The position numbers and the translations under genes were made by a program. Below are positions 1 to 6,491 of a stretch of DNA of 6,501 nt, piece by piece (position 1 is the first letter of the stretch; every line of letters starts with the position of its first letter). The stretch is from Clostridium sp. (lineage in GTDB: Bacteria; Bacillota_A; Clostridia; Lachnospirales; Lachnospiraceae), in contig JAMPAW010000179.1 of assembly GCA_023666975.1 (NCBI GenBank), positions 1 to 6,501 on the forward strand, read 5' to 3'. The notes under the pieces were generated by a model. It had not been told where the DNA came from. It saw nothing but the letters and a program-made list of their open reading frames with translations, and made no database searches.

Positions 1-481
1 AAAGATGAATGGCATCCCCCACGCACAATTCTATTTTTTCATCTTGAATCATCTTTTCTTCCAGAACAATTTCTCTTTCGTTATGAGGCCAGTTTCCCTC
101 TGTCAGGGAGACAAAAGCCCATGTAAGCGCTTTTTCCTCTGCATACAAAACAGGGTAGTCCTTTTTCGGATGATTCGCCAGTATTCCCTGTCCCAATTGA
201 ATACTATATGACGAATCAGTAAACACTGACTGTTTCCTGACAGCATCCATCTGTACGCCTGAAATATTATAATAAATACCTTCTGCCATCGTTCCAACCG
301 CTCGCAGATTATTTGCAAAAACCGCCTGCTGCATAGCAAGATAAACAATCTGACTCACAAAGACAAAAATGATGGACATGCTGATTACAGAAATCATGAT
401 AAGATTTCTCTTTTTTTGATGTCTTATGATTTTACCGGCAAGAGCTACGGTATTTTTCAACGCCAAAATATCTTTTTTCAT
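1..481 (-). CDS. FtsX/MacB-like ABC transporter permease, N-terminal part (cut by window edge)
   Basis: This is the start of the membrane subunit partnering the ATPase encoded just upstream; 160 codons are visible and the gene continues beyond position 1. The N-terminus is basic and cytoplasmic (residues 1-26, ending HQKKR). One clear membrane segment follows (about 27-50, LIMISVISMSIIFVFVSQ). Next comes an extracytoplasmic region ending in LTEGNWPHNEREIVLEE (127-142), the pattern typical of the extracellular domain of FtsX/MacB permeases (L-x-G-x-x-P-x-x-x-E-I-V-L). The ATG overlaps the ATPase stop codon in an ATGA (478-481), so the two are translationally coupled. FtsX-type permeases with a LolD/MacB-type ATPase export peptides or remove antimicrobial peptides from the membrane. 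Next to a RiPP operon the likely role is export or producer immunity. Family assignment is firm; substrate is inferred. Confidence 0.88.
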   Translation of the reverse strand, partial: MKKDILALKNTVALAGKIIRHQKKRNLIMISVISMSIIFVFVSQIVYLAMQQAVFANNLRAVGTMAEGIYYNISGVQMDAVRKQSVFTDSSYSIQLGQGILANHPKKDYPVLYAEEKALTWAFVSLTEGNWPHNEREIVLEEKMIQDEKIELCVGDAIHL

Positions 482-1155
482 GCTTTGTTCTCTGAAAGAA
501 CACCATCTTTCATCACATAAATTTTCTGGCTTCTTTTTGCTATCTCAGTATTGTGAGTAATCATTACGATTGTCTGTCCATATTCTTTTGAGGATTTTAA
601 AATACAGTCTATTACATGTTCTGAATTTTCTGAATCCAGATTTCCTGTAGGTTCGTCTGCCAGAACGATTTTGGGTCTGGCTACTAATGCCCTTGCAATC
701 GCTACGCGTTGCTGCTGACCGCCGGATAATTGATTCGGCAGACGATTTTCCAAGTCTGACAAACCAAAATCCCGAATCAACTGACGAATATAGACTTCAT
801 CTTCCTTTTCTCCCCCCATCTGAACAGGTAAAACAATGTTTTCATATACCGTAAGCATCGGAAGTAAATTAAAATTCTGATAAATGATACCGATATTACT
901 TCTTCTGAAGGCTGCCTTTTTTTCTTCCTTCCATGTGGTAATATCTGTTCCATCAATGATTACTTTACCGGCAGTTGGACAATCTATGCCTCCCAGAATA
1001 TTTAACAACGTGGTTTTCCCGCTTCCCGAAGCACCCACAATCGTAATAAATTCACCCTGATTCACTTTTAAATTCACGTCAATTAAAGCGTTTACCTGAC
1101 TTTCCTTTAATCCATACTGTTTACATATATTTTGCAATTCCGCTATTACTCCCAT
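478..1155 (-). CDS. ABC transporter ATP-binding protein, LolD/MacB family
   Basis: The 225-residue nucleotide-binding subunit energises the FtsX-like permease encoded next. All motifs are intact: Walker A GASGSGKTT (41-49), Q-loop YQNFNL (Q93), signature LSGGQQQR (143-150), Walker B IVLADEPT (163-170), D-loop NLD and H-loop H201. Length is normal for MacB/LolD ATPases. I chose the ATG at 1155 because GGAG lies 7 nt upstream and the protein then begins as the family does (MGVIAELQNICKQYG). The frame is open to a GTG at 1230, but that codon has no ribosome binding site and sits inside a hairpin. There is no C39 peptidase domain, so this is not a leader-cleaving PCAT exporter. It lies 121 nt after the peptide gene and is probably in the same operon. 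Export or self-immunity for the modified peptide is inferred from context. Confidence 0.95.
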   Translation of the reverse strand: MGVIAELQNICKQYGLKESQVNALIDVNLKVNQGEFITIVGASGSGKTTLLNILGGIDCPTAGKVIIDGTDITTWKEEKKAAFRRSNIGIIYQNFNLLPMLTVYENIVLPVQMGGEKEDEVYIRQLIRDFGLSDLENRLPNQLSGGQQQRVAIARALVARPKIVLADEPTGNLDSENSEHVIDCILKSSKEYGQTIVMITHNTEIAKRSQKIYVMKDGVLSENKA

Positions 1156-1206
1156 TTGATTGCTCCAATCCTTTTTTAATGCAATATTGCTGCCGTCACT
1201 AATAGA

Positions 1207-1236
1207 TATTAAATGGGGCGCAGGCCCCACTTAATA
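1207..1236 (-). terminator. 13-bp hairpin between peptide gene and transporter genes (attenuator or partial terminator)
   Basis: On the minus-strand transcript the arms 1236-1224 (TATTAAGTGGGGC) and 1219-1207 (GCCCCATTTAATA) pair over 13 bp around a CTGC loop. The only non-Watson-Crick pair is G-U. On the plus strand the same position would be an A-C mismatch, so the structure fits minus-strand transcription. The sequence after the stem is AT-rich (TCTATT) but has no long U-run, so full termination is doubtful. Placed right after a RiPP precursor and before lower-demand transporter genes, it may act as a leaky terminator or an mRNA-stabilising stem that keeps precursor mRNA high. Confidence 0.6.
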
Positions 1237-1276
1237 AGTGTATCATAAAATGTAAGATATGTTTATAATAAAAATA

Positions 1277-1462
1277 TTAACCTAAGAAAAAGGGCATATA
1301 TTGCCTATCATATGTAGGATTACCCAGCCAGCAACCAACGCCAGCGCTATGATGAGCAGCATCAATAGCCTTCCATACCACGTGCATACAAGCCTTGCAA
1401 CCAAATTCCATTGTTGTGTCCAATTCAATTTTCTGATTGACTTTTTTGATTTTAAGTTCCAT
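1277..1462 (-). CDS. Putative radical SAM-modified RiPP precursor peptide (61 aa, three Cys)
   Basis: I do not recognise this peptide, but its setting makes it the likely substrate of the two radical SAM enzymes encoded just upstream. The first ~20 residues are charged and leader-like (MELKIKKVNQKIELDTTMEF). Then comes GCKACMHVVW (21-30), a stretch with an HH pair (37-38), GVGCWLG (41-47) and an aromatic end PFFLG (57-61). Cysteines are C22, C25 and C44. A GCxxC opening and C-terminal Gly recall subtilosin A, but the third Cys is 19 residues from the second and overall identity is not evident. The start at 1462 has GGAGG 6 nt upstream. An in-frame ATG at 1468 directly abuts GGAGG and would give 63 aa. 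No Ser/Thr-rich core or LanM-type enzyme is present, which disfavours a lanthipeptide. It may instead be a small redox or metal-binding peptide, which is less likely here. Confidence 0.72.
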   Translation of the reverse strand: MELKIKKVNQKIELDTTMEFGCKACMHVVWKAIDAAHHSAGVGCWLGNPTYDRQYMPFFLG

Positions 1463-1473
1463 TTTCATCCTCC
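1458..1473 (-). promoter_or_regulatory. Ribosome binding site and double-ATG start block of the peptide gene
   Basis: The minus strand reads GGAGGATGAAAATGGA. GGAGG runs straight into an ATG, and a second in-frame ATG follows 6 nt after it. Only the second has normal spacing, so it decides the start at 1462. The same 16 nt occur in front of the first radical SAM gene (3793-3808). Confidence 0.7.
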
Positions 1474-1501
1474 AAAATTACTGTTAATTTGTTTTTATCG
1501 T

Positions 1502-1534
1502 ATTCTATAAACATAAATACATTTAATGATTCAA
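1502..1534 (-). promoter_or_regulatory. Possible weak internal promoter in front of the peptide gene
   Basis: In the 68-nt gap between the second radical SAM gene and the peptide gene, TAGAAT (1507-1502) matches a -10 box at five of six bases. The nearest -35-like element, TTGAAT (1534-1529), is 21 nt away, too far for a standard sigma-A promoter. A separate promoter here would help make precursor in excess over enzyme. It is at best a weak or activator-dependent site and may be chance AT-rich sequence. Confidence 0.22.
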
Positions 1535-2541
1535 AATAGTTTTTTTGCCTCTCGTCTGTGCAATTCGCAGACTAACGGAACAGGCAAAAAATAATCTCCT
1601 GTTACCGCCTTGTTAATAAATTTGCATCTGGTAGAAATACAACTGTTATACCCATTGCATCCAACACATTTTGTAACACTTTGCAGACATATTTCTTTGA
1701 TATTTTTTACTACGTTACGATTCAATCCATTGTAAATATCACCCATACACATATCAGAAGTAATAACATAGGAACAGGGATATATTTTTCCTTGTACATC
1801 AATTTCATATTTTTCTTTCCCTGCTCCGCATGGAATATGATTAAATACTTTTTCAGTTAAAGGCAAAATAATCTCAGCATCTACCTCTTCCTCTTTTATA
1901 TAATCCCGTAGCGTTCTGCATTGATATTCTATTGTATCTACATGCTCGCTTGTCCAGTTAACACAAAACAAATCCGGAACAGCTGCTATATGTCTCATTC
2001 CATTTTCCAGAAAAAATTTGATACTATCTGACAGGAATGCACAGTTGACATCATTTATTGTCATACGTATCCAGATATTTTCTTTCTGTTCCACTAGATA
2101 TTTGCATACCGCAAATACTTTATCAAAAACGCCTTCATTATATTTATTTTTGCGACAAATATCGTTAATCTCTTTTGTACCATCTAAACTGATAGATAAT
2201 TCATCCATATTAGCAAGCAGGTAATCCAAATCATCTCTTGCCACTTGATATCCGTTACTTGTAAGCGAAAACTCAAATTTCAGTTCTTTTCCAATTTCAC
2301 GCAGGCTGTCTACTACTCCTCGGATAACAGGCATGTTTATTGTTGGTTCTCCCCCATGAAACCGGATTTGCGCAAAAGTATATCCGCCATTTCTCATCGT
2401 TCCAACCATCCAATGCGCAGCAGCCATTCCTGTTTCCAGAGTCATGTTTGTATTGCTTTTTTTCACTCCCTCATAACAATAGGAACATTCCATATTACAG
2501 GATGTTGTAACCCATAAAGTAAAAGAAATCATTTTCCCCAT
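1531..2541 (-). CDS. Radical SAM/SPASM peptide maturase without an RRE domain (anSME-like)
   Basis: This is a 336-residue radical SAM enzyme. The [4Fe-4S]/SAM site is C15-x3-C19-x2-C22, with the aromatic residue (Y21) before the last Cys that is usual in the superfamily. FHGGEP (61-66) is the SAM amino-group motif, and SISLDG (116-121) is a core strand. The C-terminal SPASM domain, which holds two auxiliary clusters, has C238-x12-G-x4-C256, then C292-x2-C295-x5-C301-x4-C306 and a final C325; the usual spacing in the last pair is CX3C. It starts almost directly at the radical SAM core, so it has no recognition domain and may rely on the RRE-like region of its neighbour. It overlaps that gene by 13 nt; AGGAGG lies 4 nt before the ATG at 2541. 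An in-frame ATG at 2532 makes a classic ATGA overlap and is a possible alternative. The likely role is a second modification of the 61-residue peptide; the chemistry cannot be told from sequence. Confidence 0.9.
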   Translation of the reverse strand: MGKMISFTLWVTTSCNMECSYCYEGVKKSNTNMTLETGMAAAHWMVGTMRNGGYTFAQIRFHGGEPTINMPVIRGVVDSLREIGKELKFEFSLTSNGYQVARDDLDYLLANMDELSISLDGTKEINDICRKNKYNEGVFDKVFAVCKYLVEQKENIWIRMTINDVNCAFLSDSIKFFLENGMRHIAAVPDLFCVNWTSEHVDTIEYQCRTLRDYIKEEEVDAEIILPLTEKVFNHIPCGAGKEKYEIDVQGKIYPCSYVITSDMCMGDIYNGLNRNVVKNIKEICLQSVTKCVGCNGYNSCISTRCKFINKAVTGDYFLPVPLVCELHRREAKKLF

Positions 2542-3797
2542 ATTGCCTCCTGCAAATACTCCTTATTCTCTTTACATATTGCATCTATTCCGAATTCTTC
2601 TATTTCTCTTTCAAAGCTTTCCAGACAGCCAACGCAAAATGGTGCGACATTACACTGTGAACATCTTTCTCTTTTTTTTGCAAGAATCGCCTGAAAATTA
2701 CAATATCCCCTGCTGTTATTACAGGCATTGTCAAAATAATTTCTTAAATCCTCCACATCACGCATATTACCAAAACAAAACTTTTCATTTTCCAAAGGCA
2801 GACAAGGATAGATATCACCAATATAATTAATAGAAATTCTGGTTCTCCCGGCAGAACAGCAATCACAAGAAGGTCTGACAAGTGCCATCTCATTCTTCAG
2901 TTTATCGTATCCTGCCATTCTGTGCCTCGGTTTATTCTCTTGACTAATACATAACCAATCAGCATTTTCAGCACCTCTACCCGCCTTGCTGAACTCTCTG
3001 ACCACAGGTCTTACATCTAAATCACTACATAGCTTCTCGAATAATTCTCTCTTTCCAGATGTTATTGCGGTTTCAACCATGGACAAAGAAATTCTTTTAC
3101 TATCAAATCCACTTTTAATCAGTAATCTGACTGCATCAATAACCTTTTTAAATATTCCGGGACCTCGTAATTTTGAACAGGTATTCTCATCATATCCATC
3201 AATACTGATACTGATATCAGAAAAAATATTAATAATTCTTTTTACATTATCTTCAGTTATAAAAGTTCCATTGGAAGATAACCCGATAGCGCCCTTATAT
3301 ACTTTTCTTATATACTCAACAATATCAAAGAAATCTCTTCTTAACATTGGTTCTCCACCGGTAATAGTAATTGTTTCTATATCTGACAAGCATATTTTGT
3401 CAATTATATTTTTCCATTCTTGTGTAGACAAACCATGATTTACACCTTCACCCTGTGCTGCCTCACAGCAATGTGCACAATGAAGATTGCATCGATTTGT
3501 AATAGCTAAATCTACGCTCTTGATTCTCTCCTCATATTCATCCTTGATTATCAAACCCATATCCGCCATTTTAGAAAAAATCTCTTGATAATATGACCTA
3601 TCATCTTCATGGGCAGCATTACAAATCTCGCTGGGCGAATAGTAAGTAATGTACTTTTCAATACTTTCCCAGCAATCATCTGGCATTTTCAGACTATTAC
3701 CATTTCCGGAATGACAAACAATTATCTCATTATTATTTTTGATTACATGACTAAAAACCGATAAATAGTAAACAGTATTCATTTCTCTGACATCCAT
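2529..3797 (-). CDS. Radical SAM/SPASM RiPP maturase with RRE-like N-terminal domain (sactisynthase-like)
   Basis: This 422-residue enzyme has the architecture of sactipeptide/ranthipeptide synthases such as AlbA, SkfB and TrnC/TrnD. Residues 1-90 resemble a PqqD-like leader-binding (RRE) region, with short strands such as NEIIVCHSGNGNSLKMPDD and a helical tail ending MADMGLI. The radical SAM site is C103-x3-C107-x2-C110, followed by GGEP (147-150) and SISIDG (196-201). The SPASM region has C314-x12-G-x4-C332, then C379-x2-C382-x5-C388-x2-C391 and C408. Extra cysteines lie at 311, 313, 341 and 366. The start at 3797 is chosen because GGAGG lies 6 nt upstream; an ATG at 3803 abuts GGAGG, and the frame opens from a TTG at 3812. 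It is the first large gene of the proposed operon. Likely action is thioether formation from Cys thiols on the 61-mer; the linkage type is inferred. Confidence 0.92.
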   Translation of the reverse strand: MDVREMNTVYYLSVFSHVIKNNNEIIVCHSGNGNSLKMPDDCWESIEKYITYYSPSEICNAAHEDDRSYYQEIFSKMADMGLIIKDEYEERIKSVDLAITNRCNLHCAHCCEAAQGEGVNHGLSTQEWKNIIDKICLSDIETITITGGEPMLRRDFFDIVEYIRKVYKGAIGLSSNGTFITEDNVKRIINIFSDISISIDGYDENTCSKLRGPGIFKKVIDAVRLLIKSGFDSKRISLSMVETAITSGKRELFEKLCSDLDVRPVVREFSKAGRGAENADWLCISQENKPRHRMAGYDKLKNEMALVRPSCDCCSAGRTRISINYIGDIYPCLPLENEKFCFGNMRDVEDLRNYFDNACNNSRGYCNFQAILAKKRERCSQCNVAPFCVGCLESFEREIEEFGIDAICKENKEYLQEAIWGK

Positions 3798-4232: not shown

Positions 4233-4286
4233 TTATCCTAATATCCAAATCCAAATATATCTCCAATTAATCGTTGAAAAAAACAT
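4233..4286 (-). CDS. 17-aa aromatic peptide MFFSTINWRYIWIWILG (candidate pheromone or leader peptide)
   Basis: This tiny ORF is below the size cut-off of gene finders, yet it has one of the best ribosome binding sites in the window: AGAAGGAGG with 8 nt from AGGAGG to the ATG. The peptide holds three Trp, one Tyr and two Phe in 17 residues, one positive charge (R9), and ends in IWIWILG. It lies directly downstream of the kinase gene and about 65 nt after LytTR-like repeats, where a peptide that triggers the two-component system would be expected. It has no Gly-Gly leader, no AgrD-like Cys or acidic tail, and no export gene is visible, so it would resemble short hydrophobic pheromones rather than known LytTR-linked ones. 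Alternatives are a Trp-sensing leader peptide, a small membrane toxin, or chance. The ORF and its ribosome binding site are plain; function is inferred. Confidence 0.5.
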   Translation of the reverse strand: MFFSTINWRYIWIWILG

Positions 4287-4349
4287 TTTTTTATCCTCCT
4301 TCTTCTGGTAGCTTAACAGGGTTTCAGGAGAAACTCAATTATTATTTCT

Positions 4350-4378
4350 TGAACGACATAATTTTTTCGTAAACGACA
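4350..4378 (-). promoter_or_regulatory. Direct repeats resembling a LytTR response regulator binding site
   Basis: On the minus strand, TGTCGTTTA (4378-4370) and TGTCGTTCA (4358-4350) match at 8 of 9 bases and are separated by 11 nt, a 20-nt period. LytTR regulators such as AgrA, ComE and PlnC bind two ~9-bp repeats containing GTT, usually 21-22 nt apart. The pair lies right after the kinase stop codon. About 30 nt downstream is only a poor -10 (TGTTAA or TAAGCT, 4318-4310) with TTGAGT as -35 (4338-4333), as expected for an activator-dependent promoter. No other copy of GTCGTT pairs was noticed. Confidence 0.5.
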
Positions 4379-4399: not shown

Positions 4400-5707
4400 T
4401 TAGATAATAACCTCTATTGTAAAAAACTGATTACTTACAGTGTAGTTTATAATTCCGCCATATTTTTCTGCAACATTGCGTATGTTTTTGCTCCCAAAGC
4501 CATGCCTTGAATCGTCTTTTTGGGACGATATAGGGTTTTGGTTTTCATCGAATACTATTTCGTGTCCGAGTGGATTCTTTTCGTAAATATACAGCTTTTC
4601 TGCCGTCGTATCCATAATAAGCCTTATATTTCTATTCTCGGCTTCCAAGTCTTCACAAGCCTCGATTGCATTATTCAATACATTTATAAGGATTGTGCAT
4701 ACATCATACATAATAATATGCTCAGGAAGTTTATTTGCATTTATTTCGCATGTAAATGATATCCCTTCCGTATCCATGCAATTCTTTTTTTCTGAAATAA
4801 TAGCGTCAATGGTTATGATACCTGTATAGCGCTTTAGTTGCGCAACACTGAAGCATTCATTTATTTTAGTGATATACCTTTTGGCCTCCTCATAATTTCT
4901 CTGCTCCAGACAGCGGGAAAGGATATACAGGTGTTCCTTTACATCATGTCTGAAACTTCGCATTTCTTTGTCCTTTTCCAAAATAAGCTGAATATATTTT
5001 TCCTGTTCTGTTAAATATACATTCAATATATTTTTTTCAACGTGGAGAGTTTCATTTTTATAAATAGTCCCCGACAGCCATAAAAAGAATAGACAAAATA
5101 TCATGCTGGCGCATGACAGGAAAAAGCCCAGAATATTTGCTTCAGTAGATGGTATGTGATGCAAGGACCCTATGTATTGAACCAATCCTATTAAGAGATA
5201 GAATATTATGTTACCGGCTGTAGTAACGATATAGACGGGATTACTGAAAGTCAGCGTGTGCTGTTTATGAGAATGATATATTCTTCTCCTGAGATAAATT
5301 ATTATCATTAATACTGTGAAAAAAGAATTTGCCATCAACTCTAAAACCGGATTATCTGCAACGGTTGCCTGTGGAATATTTAAAATGATTGCCATTAAAA
5401 AAGAAACTGCAACATTACCGGTTGAAGAAATCATAAATGCACATGGATATAATAATAACCACATAATTTTGGGACTGTCTGTTATCAGAAGTGGTAATAA
5501 CAGACCACAAAACATATGAATCAGAACTCTGTCTGCATTTATATGACATACAATATTTATGACATTGCAAAAAATAATTCCCATGTATACCCAATAGATA
5601 TACTGCTTTCTCTTTGTTAAGGGAATCTGCAATATCTGTGTATAACAAAGCAAAATATTGCTTAATGAAACTATGGATTCAGCGATATATAAAATCATAC
5701 TAGTCAT
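4400..5707 (-). CDS. GHKL-family sensor histidine kinase (AgrC/ComD-like)
   Basis: This 435-residue membrane kinase is likely the partner of the LytTR regulator encoded just upstream. The first ~215 residues carry six to seven hydrophobic spans (for example 3-22, 36-55, 62-76, 80-110, 124-140, 157-180 and 190-212), the peptide-receptor type of sensor. A linker helix follows, then the H-box FRHDVKEHL with H254 as predicted phosphorylation site, the N-box INVLNNAIEACE (341-352) and the G-box HGFGSKNI (402-409), followed by KYGG. This is the HATPase_c_5/GHKL layout of AgrC, ComD and BlpH. The ATG at 5707 has GGGAG 7 nt upstream and lies inside the end of the regulator gene, with an 8-nt overlap. 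The ligand is unknown; known relatives sense cyclic or linear peptides, and no agrB/agrD pair lies in the window. Confidence 0.93.
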   Translation of the reverse strand: MTSMILYIAESIVSLSNILLCYTQILQIPLTKRKQYIYWVYMGIIFCNVINIVCHINADRVLIHMFCGLLLPLLITDSPKIMWLLLYPCAFMISSTGNVAVSFLMAIILNIPQATVADNPVLELMANSFFTVLMIIIYLRRRIYHSHKQHTLTFSNPVYIVTTAGNIIFYLLIGLVQYIGSLHHIPSTEANILGFFLSCASMIFCLFFLWLSGTIYKNETLHVEKNILNVYLTEQEKYIQLILEKDKEMRSFRHDVKEHLYILSRCLEQRNYEEAKRYITKINECFSVAQLKRYTGIITIDAIISEKKNCMDTEGISFTCEINANKLPEHIIMYDVCTILINVLNNAIEACEDLEAENRNIRLIMDTTAEKLYIYEKNPLGHEIVFDENQNPISSQKDDSRHGFGSKNIRNVAEKYGGIINYTVSNQFFTIEVII

Positions 5708-6422
5708 CTATGTTCTCCCTGAATATATTTAAGAGATATTCTCTGTATGTGTACTGACTCGTCTGTTTGTATTTTCTTCCTATTGGCAGATTTATGTTAG
5801 AAGATTTTAAGCGTACATACTTTCCAATATTTAAAACGTAACTAAGATTAACAAGGTATGACTTATGTATACGAAAGAAATTATATCCGGCCAACTTTTT
5901 CTCCCATGCTTTTAGACTACCGCATACAGTATAACTTTCCCTGTTTGTAACTATGCATACATAATTACCCTTTCCCGATAAATATACAATTTGGCCGACA
6001 AAAAGATAAATATGTTTTTCTGAAAGGGAGATTTCAATAATTTCTTTGCTTTTATTCAGTTGTTTGTCTATTAACTTTTTAATTTTTTTTGTAAATTGGT
6101 CATATTCCAGAGGTTTGCAAAAAAAGCCTCTGGTTTTGCTGCCAAATGAATCAAAAACGTAATCGGAATGAGCTGATACAAAAAAAATATTTCTGATATA
6201 GTCTCTCTTTTCCAGTATCTGCATGGCATCTATACCATTTATTCCATCCATTTCTATATCAAGGAAGAGAATATCAATCTCTTTATTATATGTAAGTAAT
6301 TCCTCGCCTGTATGAAATATCAGATACTCAAATTTTTCACCAAGCTCATCTCCCGCCCTTTCACAGCATTCCTTTACTGCTTCAACGCATTCAACTTCAT
6401 CATCGCATATTCCTATAAACAT
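5700..6422 (-). CDS. LytTR-family response regulator (AgrA/ComE-like)
   Basis: This 240-residue DNA-binding regulator takes phosphate from the kinase encoded next. The receiver domain (about 1-120) has the acidic pair D7-D8, the predicted phosphoacceptor D55 in ILFLDIEMDG, S83 as the switch residue and K103 in FCKPLEYDQF. The LytTR DNA-binding domain spans about 137-235, with typical features IVYLSGKGNYVCIV, FFRIHKSYLVNLSYV and LPIGRKYK. Such proteins bind paired ~9-bp direct repeats and activate nearby promoters. The start at 6422 is chosen because AAAGGA lies 7 nt upstream and MFIGICDDE is the usual opening of the family; the frame extends to an ATG at 6458, which has no clear ribosome binding site. 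It is the first gene of the regulator-kinase operon. The target is probably the repeat pair at 4350-4378, by inference. Confidence 0.94.
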   Translation of the reverse strand: MFIGICDDEVECVEAVKECCERAGDELGEKFEYLIFHTGEELLTYNKEIDILFLDIEMDGINGIDAMQILEKRDYIRNIFFVSAHSDYVFDSFGSKTRGFFCKPLEYDQFTKKIKKLIDKQLNKSKEIIEISLSEKHIYLFVGQIVYLSGKGNYVCIVTNRESYTVCGSLKAWEKKLAGYNFFRIHKSYLVNLSYVLNIGKYVRLKSSNINLPIGRKYKQTSQYTYREYLLNIFRENIDD

Positions 6423-6491
6423 GGTTTTGTCCTTTGCTTTTTTAATAGATATTTGCATTGTAACCGTTTGACTTGGCTGTGTTTTTGCACA

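Follow-up and report, generated by a model that had tools for sequence, protein, structure and literature searches.

The window analyzed here, a 6,501-nucleotide stretch of Clostridium sp. (contig JAMPAW010000179.1; G000:C3:38030-44530 in the genome assembly), encodes two different radical S-adenosylmethionine (SAM)/SPASM enzymes, E1 and E2, followed by a 61-residue precursor of a ribosomally synthesized and post-translationally modified peptide (RiPP). The three genes probably represent a conserved family of thioether RiPPs with two synthases, of which E1 provides the RiPP recognition element (RRE) for both, a reading to which we assign a probability of roughly 60%. The strongest reason to think that E1 holds the leader and that E2 acts on the held peptide is that E2, which has no RRE and is kin to an RRE-type maturase, was located beside E1 or a fragment of E1 in all 37 members of its clade.

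2529..3797, minus strand: E1, radical SAM/SPASM enzyme with an N-terminal RRE-like domain, 422 residues
3549..3752, minus strand: RRE-like winged-helix region of E1, approximately residues 16–83, from the fold of the predicted structure
3468..3491, minus strand: CxxxCxxC of E1 (C103, C107, C110), invariant in 22 aligned sequences
1531..2541, minus strand: E2, radical SAM/SPASM enzyme of the PapB/SCIFF/QhpD lineage without RRE, 336 residues
2476..2499, minus strand: CxxxCxxC of E2 (C15, C19, C22), at least 90% conserved in 23 aligned sequences, one of them an N-terminal fragment
1277..1462, minus strand: precursor peptide, 61 residues, with Cys22, Cys25 and Cys44, a ribosome-binding site and a precursor-profile match

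Two radical SAM enzymes of different lineages

E1 starts at the ATG at 3797 behind the ribosome-binding site GAGGAGG and ends with TGA at 2529, and E2 runs from the ATG at 2541 to the TGA at 1531. Translational coupling of the two is plausible because the E2 ATG lies 13 nucleotides inside E1 with AGGAGG just 5' of it. An earlier note on this DNA had placed the genes at 1277–3797, and had proposed that two distinct radical SAM/SPASM enzymes are coupled here; both points hold, with the CxxxCxxC motifs intact and the complete set of SPASM cysteines present in the alignments of both enzymes.

The AlphaFold2 model of E1 (mean predicted local distance difference test score, pLDDT, of 90–94 across residues 11–80) has strands at residues 16–21, 24–29 and 35–39 and helices at 40–49, 55–61 and 64–80, and the N-terminus is thus predicted to adopt the three-stranded sheet and three-helix winged helix of an RRE. 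The assignment is by fold and not by sequence model, as no RRE or PqqD model was among the Pfam families matched at E ≤ 1 by any of the 22 aligned E1 sequences. The top structural matches of E1 were the thioether synthases 5WHY (Foldseek) and SkfB (VIA-align); the SkfB alignment begins at model residue 13, and the structure comparison mainly spans residues 86–413. The NCBIfam scores of E1 were mixed, i.e., StsB (116 bits, cut-off 625), mycofactocin MftC (100 bits), MoaA and NirJ (84–88 bits), and kinship would make it a sactisynthase.

The best family for E2 was the PapB ranthipeptide maturase (NF047865; 159.8 bits, under the cut-off of 340), followed by CcpM (113.5), the SCIFF maturase (112.2) and QhpD (94.8, under the cut-off of 453). 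The earlier note had called E2 similar to anaerobic sulfatase maturases (anSME), an assignment that we reject given a score of 65.2 bits (TIGR03942, cut-off 349.45) and the far better match to PapB. E2 did not group with sulfatase maturases, and no sulfatase was detected among the seven window open reading frames (ORFs) scanned. The predicted model of E2 (pLDDT 88.9) opens directly with the barrel, with no RRE, so the claim that the first enzyme alone carries an RRE-like domain is upheld by the two models. The best solved match was 5WGG/5WHY (5WHY TMq 0.84 by structure, 5WGG 2.7e-27 by sequence), which we take to be the SCIFF maturase CteB. E2 lacks a PapB-type N-terminal domain before its radical SAM core: just 4 residues precede the modeled core (which starts at residue 5), versus 98 (core start at residue 99) in L142, a PapB-family protein above the cut-off (480.9 bits). 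In the 4-kb stretch of L142, the only ORFs of at least 300 residues were L142 and a transporter.

Recurrence of the pair with its precursor

Relatives were collected with an E2-pattern search (80 of 141 loci kept) and by searching the genomes of the family, 345 of 397 of which matched at 1e-40; from these matches the best 30 places were taken, the weaker of them being mostly frames of at least 450 codons that resemble SCIFF maturases by length alone; further loci were drawn from plasmids. A pair was defined as an E1 match above 110 bits near an E2 match above 80 bits, which is not the same as two proven full genes, and the query was partially covered by the E1 match in L019 and L022 and by the E2 match in L038. 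L007 and L026, with only the C-terminal part of E1, were counted separately. Pairs were found at 36 loci (35 and the window, repeats of the window excluded), and a precursor was present at 33 of them and not found at L019, L022 and L038, so the conserved pair with its peptide that the earlier note had envisaged is borne out.

In a 69-row tree of E2 (bootstrap not settled; L094, whose frame is too short, L039–L041 and L043 were omitted), one clade of 37 rows (support 99/98) consisted of the 35 paired rows, L007 and L026, and none of the 32 rows outside it had an E1 match above 110 bits within 700 nucleotides. The reverse search, from E1, had matches at E ≤ 1e-60 in the family set (7 of 397 genomes) and the phylum set (1 of 398), and at E ≤ 1e-50 in the class set (5 of 391). 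The total is 11 genomes, as the genome of the window was counted in each of the three sets; L017 and L042 evidently come from two of the 11 (G892 and G1071, respectively). E2 was adjacent and a precursor was present in 10 of these 11. The remaining one, G139 (L128:4957-7122), has E1, a subtilase match (72.4 bits), an ABC protein and a 50-residue peptide with two cysteines (profile E 9.6e-4). VQGQ closes the leader of this peptide, and the peptide lacks CxxDC, the motif common to most precursors of the family; no E2 was found within the 13 kb taken around the E1 of G139. This single case suggests that CxxDC may depend on E2. By eye, the E1 locus of G139 adjoins genes that look flagellar from their first residues.

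The recurrence of pair and peptide is more than chance. The window itself has an E2 within the clade, an adjacent E1, a precursor of the shared leader family and a subtilase in the cluster. The E1 and E2 distances were correlated over 32 loci (r 0.82, reached in none of 2000 permutations), as shared descent alone would also produce. For eight of the 22 best E1 database proteins, the longest contig is equal in length to that of an E2 match when compared by eye, which points to linkage of the two in metagenomes too. Viral contigs gave two weak matches, and 25 records matched in a phage collection, the five listed at 25–26% identity.

A QhpE-like subtilase was detected (tblastn, E ≤ 1e-6, with five family subtilases as queries) at 31 of the 36 pair loci, counting extended stretches of three genomes and the genome of the window itself, and was missed at L008 (a 4-kb contig), L019, L022, L038 and L093/L130. 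On the Clostridioides difficile plasmid p_TW11, E1, E2, the peptide, an S8 peptidase and an ABC transporter lie in a row. Six loci (L014, L015, L028, L030, L086 and L088) combine two E1-like genes with a single E2; in L086 and L088, from two Paraclostridium sordellii plasmids, AgrB and cyclic-lactone autoinducer (agrB/agrD-like) genes are nearby. L004, the closest relative within the genome collection, comes from a contig assigned by binning to Muribaculum (Bacteroidota), and the named rest of the clade is Bacillota; wrong binning or transfer of the cluster may account for this.

A further cluster outside the clade, L027:10964-16101, encodes an ABC protein, an E2-like enzyme (12659-13726; 85 bits), an E1-like enzyme (13689-14987; 90 bits) and a subtilase-like protein (14971-16101) in a row, about 4 kb from the E2 counted in the tree and in the order E2-E1; the precursor profile had no match in it. 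Because L027 holds this diverged pair outside the clade, a wider, looser family is likely.

Precursor peptides and candidate crosslinks

The start of the window peptide at 1462 was favored over an earlier ATG at 1468, since GGAGG lies 6 nucleotides upstream of the former but abuts the latter. When the 63-residue ORF was searched against 5.8 billion proteins, it matched only its own 61-residue form, and E1 and E2 had relatives of 88% and 87% identity in the same database; the lone match is no evidence of uniqueness, because short sequences may have too few words in common for a match, or may go uncalled. No Pfam family or PHROG matched the window peptide, and two weak NCBIfam matches (E 0.026 and 0.064), as well as one of the L004 peptide (E 0.09), were taken as chance.

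Together with L007, 39 peptides were recovered from 34 loci, at least five of which (L011, L012, L014, L015 and L023) hold two or three precursors; the single precursor of the earlier note is thus true of the window and not of every relative. The gene mostly lies just 3' of E2, as in the window, and is upstream in L012, L013, L014, L028, L030 and L088 and more than 3 kb downstream in L029. All 39 share a leader of roughly the type K[IV]xKIxDKxExxxVxxQ. A profile trained on 37 peptides, with the window and L004 left out, was used to scan 23,999 ORFs of up to 160 codons (stop to stop) from 117 sources. The window peptide matched at E 1.9e-4, a clear but not a strong match, followed by L004 (1.5e-3) and by further ORFs of L028 (1.6e-3) and L037 (4.4e-3). 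The L092 peptide was outside the profile matches and was picked up in the survey of pair loci instead. L037:72-430, which is outside the paired clade, has two weak profile matches (E 0.0044 and 0.0085).

CxxDC is present in 36 of the 39 peptides, the exceptions being the window (CKAC), L004 (CTAC) and one L011 peptide (CKFNC). Assigning the window crosslinks from the family CxxDC was considered and rejected, as the window peptide does not have it. The core nearest to that of the window is L004, with CxAC, a late cysteine and YDRQYMP. In 22 of 27 three-cysteine peptides the late cysteine is followed by [DTSN][AP] at +5, +7 or +8, a pattern picked post hoc from the same peptides and without a control; the five exceptions are the window (Asp52-Arg at +8), L004 (Asp-Arg at +7), L007, L016 and L024.

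PapB accepts Cys-Xn-Asp with n of 0 to 6 (PMC9413430), a Cys32-Thr37 link was reported for a SCIFF maturase, with Thr34 found later for CteA in a heterologous host, and the bonds in QhpD substrates are Cys7-Glu16, Cys27-Asp33 and Cys41-Asp49 (PMC8172795), the last with the same X7 spacing as Cys44-Asp52 of the window peptide. Given these comparable spacings, a Cys44-Asp52 bond made by E2 would be reasonable.

A proposed shared recognition domain and its alternatives

We propose that the short leader of the precursor (LKIKKVNQKIELDTT...) would bind the RRE of E1, and that E1 and E2, produced from overlapping genes, probably form a complex in which both act on the same peptide. E2, whose own lineage may have lost the RRE, would use that of E1; as kin of ranthipeptide synthases it would most likely join a core cysteine to the non-alpha carbon of Asp or Thr, with Cys44-Asp52 as the candidate in the window, and E1, nearest to the sactisynthases, would make the remaining crosslink or crosslinks. 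By homology, the QhpE-like subtilase would cut off the leader, ABC proteins would export the product and an AgrC/LytTR pair would control the operon. E2 is favored as a catalyst over a helper because its cysteines are conserved. That one enzyme may hold the leader for the other, as the earlier note had suggested, has a precedent in the AlphaFold 3 model of thuricin CD by its authors, where TrnD carries most of the leader and TrnC carries the core (PMC12093266).

A stronger version, which we advance tentatively and at less than even odds, is an obligate pair of different-lineage synthases sharing one RRE: the PapB/SCIFF-type E2 would have lost its own RRE and would act on a precursor only while the RRE of its sactisynthase-type partner holds it, giving a peptide with both alpha- and non-alpha-carbon thioethers and a widespread mixed sactipeptide/ranthipeptide class in Bacillota.

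The alternatives partly overlap, and their probabilities need not sum to one. Some radical SAM peptide maturases function without an RRE. E2 might recognize the leader or core unaided, with the two enzymes acting independently and in sequence; in thuricin Z, either of ThzC and ThzD is able to modify the precursor (PMC8172795). The invariable presence of E1, or a fragment of it, beside the E2 of the clade, with no E2-only locus among the loci fetched by these searches, makes this rather unlikely. We consider it unlikely as well that the pair works as TrnC and TrnD do, in a complex with one catalytic enzyme, the other as scaffold or leader holder, and a single crosslink type. Thuricin CD strictly requires the radical SAM activity of TrnC only (PMC12093266), but the radical SAM and SPASM cysteines are kept in both enzymes here (invariant in E1, in at least 90% of E2 rows), and E1 and E2 are of different lineages, unlike two sactisynthases. 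About equally improbable is that E1 performs a non-thioether reaction (a C-C or ether bond, epimerization or oxidation) and that only E2 makes a thioether: the mixed best models of E1 would fit this, as would bicyclostreptin, in which one of two radical SAM enzymes acting on one precursor makes an O-C crosslink (PMC11002830), but the best structural matches of E1 are thioether synthases. That the peptide, like the QHNDH gamma subunit, matures into a structural or cofactor-type product and is not secreted is very improbable, since the resemblance of E2 to QhpD and of the subtilase to QhpE (79.6 bits) is set against exporters and a two-component system of peptide-sensing type, two plasmid relatives that adjoin agrB/agrD genes, and no dehydrogenase among the window ORFs scanned.

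Several points weigh against the shared-RRE family reading. Both enzymes score far under the curated cut-offs of their best NCBIfam models, so the type of reaction is suggested by kinship. As thuricin CD strictly needs one of its two radical SAM centers, two enzymes need not mean two chemistries. The window and L004 peptides do not have the CxxDC aspartate, and the family motif is not transferable to them; the candidate Cys44-Asp52 depends on a tail that is variable, and with X7 it exceeds the X0–X6 of PapB by one residue. The E1 without an adjacent E2 in G139 and the diverged pair in L027 leave the edge of the family soft. Four of the 31 subtilase matches are weak (L017, L024, L140 and L141; 52–71 bits), and matches of the same level occur outside the clade (L027, L031, L032, L033 and L037).

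Relation to described systems

Two radical SAM enzymes acting on one RiPP precursor are already known, including in an older survey that reported two per precursor in C. difficile 630 (PMC4289311). Thuricin CD also has two radical SAM/SPASM enzymes per cluster, in an asymmetric complex that divides leader binding and catalysis, but it has two different precursors rather than one, and, as the earlier note had pointed out, TrnC and TrnD are both sactisynthases, with an RRE or modified RRE (PMC12093266), whereas E2, a member of the PapB/SCIFF/QhpD lineage, has none. Thuricin Z/huazacin combines two distant radical SAM enzymes (ThzC/ThzD) with one precursor sequence, but both are sactisynthases able to work alone, and the precursor is in two identical copies (PMC8172795). 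Bicyclostreptin (HghB/HghC/HghD) likewise has one precursor and two radical SAM enzymes, but with a separate RRE protein, HghD, an O-C crosslink and shp/rgg control (PMC11002830). The closest kin of E2 in sequence and fold are the non-alpha thioether synthases PapB (freyrasin), CteB (thermocellin, SCIFF) and QhpD (PMC8172795, PMC9413430, PMC11002830), a group that resembles the window also in the QhpE-like subtilase of the cluster; these are described as single synthases, and the PapB-family L142 differs by the 98 residues ahead of its core.

Cluster 115 of a 2022 radical SAM survey combines a peptidase with 3 to 5 radical SAM enzymes, and its precursor has three or more cysteines, one of them in an Asp-Cys motif (PMC9062424). 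The six loci with two E1-like genes are similar to it, each with E2, a subtilase match and CxxDC peptides; the window differs in having two enzymes and no CxxDC. Cluster 115, uncharacterized in that survey, may be a multi-enzyme branch of the E1/E2 family. With this possible exception, the searches made of the open-access PMC literature yielded no description of an RRE-bearing E1 together with a PapB-lineage E2 lacking an RRE and this leader family, and the particular combination is apparently new, with the window as a divergent member.

Neighboring genes and possible control

In order of transcription, the minus strand encodes the LytTR regulator, the AgrC-type kinase, a gap of approximately 600 nucleotides, E1, E2, the peptide, the ABC ATPase and the start of the FtsX permease.

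5700..6458, minus strand: LytTR response regulator (LytTR 4e-18, Response_reg 1.3e-10)
4400..5707, minus strand: AgrC-type sensor kinase (GHKL domain PF14501, 2.3e-17)
4348..4378, minus strand: imperfect direct repeat TGTCGTTTACG / TGTCGTTCAAG upstream of E1, 9 of 11 positions alike, 20 nucleotides apart, noticed by eye
478..1155, minus strand: ABC exporter ATPase, DarD/LolD-like (NCBIfam DarD 221.1 bits, below the cut-off of 375; Pfam ABC_tran 3.1e-38), with the ATG at 1155 taken as start
2..481, minus strand: FtsX-type permease, truncated by the window end (full gene L119:7959-10511, 850 residues, Pfam FtsX 3.2e-13)

To the left of the window, the genome continues with the remainder of the permease, a solute-binding protein and the subtilase, the last approximately 3.5 kb past the left end (best curated model QhpE, below its cut-off of 165 bits).

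The direct repeat is a possible LytTR-type site; an automatic repeat scan upstream of E1 printed no repeat, as this one was under its threshold, and it could be chance. Downstream of the repeat is a 17-codon ORF (MFFSTINWRYIWIWILG; 4233-4286, minus strand) with a strong ribosome-binding site (GAAGGAGG), which could be a candidate inducing peptide for the AgrC/LytTR pair. A stable predicted hairpin with the core GTGGGGCCTGCGCCCCAT (~1197-1240, minus strand), without a clear T-run, lies between the peptide and ABC genes and may lower read-through, leaving the peptide in excess. The hairpin is absent from the listing of the terminator scan, which had no terminator-like site 3' of the peptide gene, and the promoter scan gave 15 sites against a shuffle mean of 17.9, i.e., no excess.

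Implications

The E1/E2 pair is a natural test of whether one RRE serves two catalytic subunits in trans, and G139, with E1, no adjacent E2 and a peptide without CxxDC, provides a built-in comparison for assigning enzymes to cysteines. As the pairing recurs in Lachnospiraceae, Peptostreptococcaceae, Paenibacillus, other Bacillota and three plasmids, one worked example would explain many clusters. This recurrence suggests a family of crosslinked peptides that is still largely unstudied, with one enzyme probably holding the peptide for the other.

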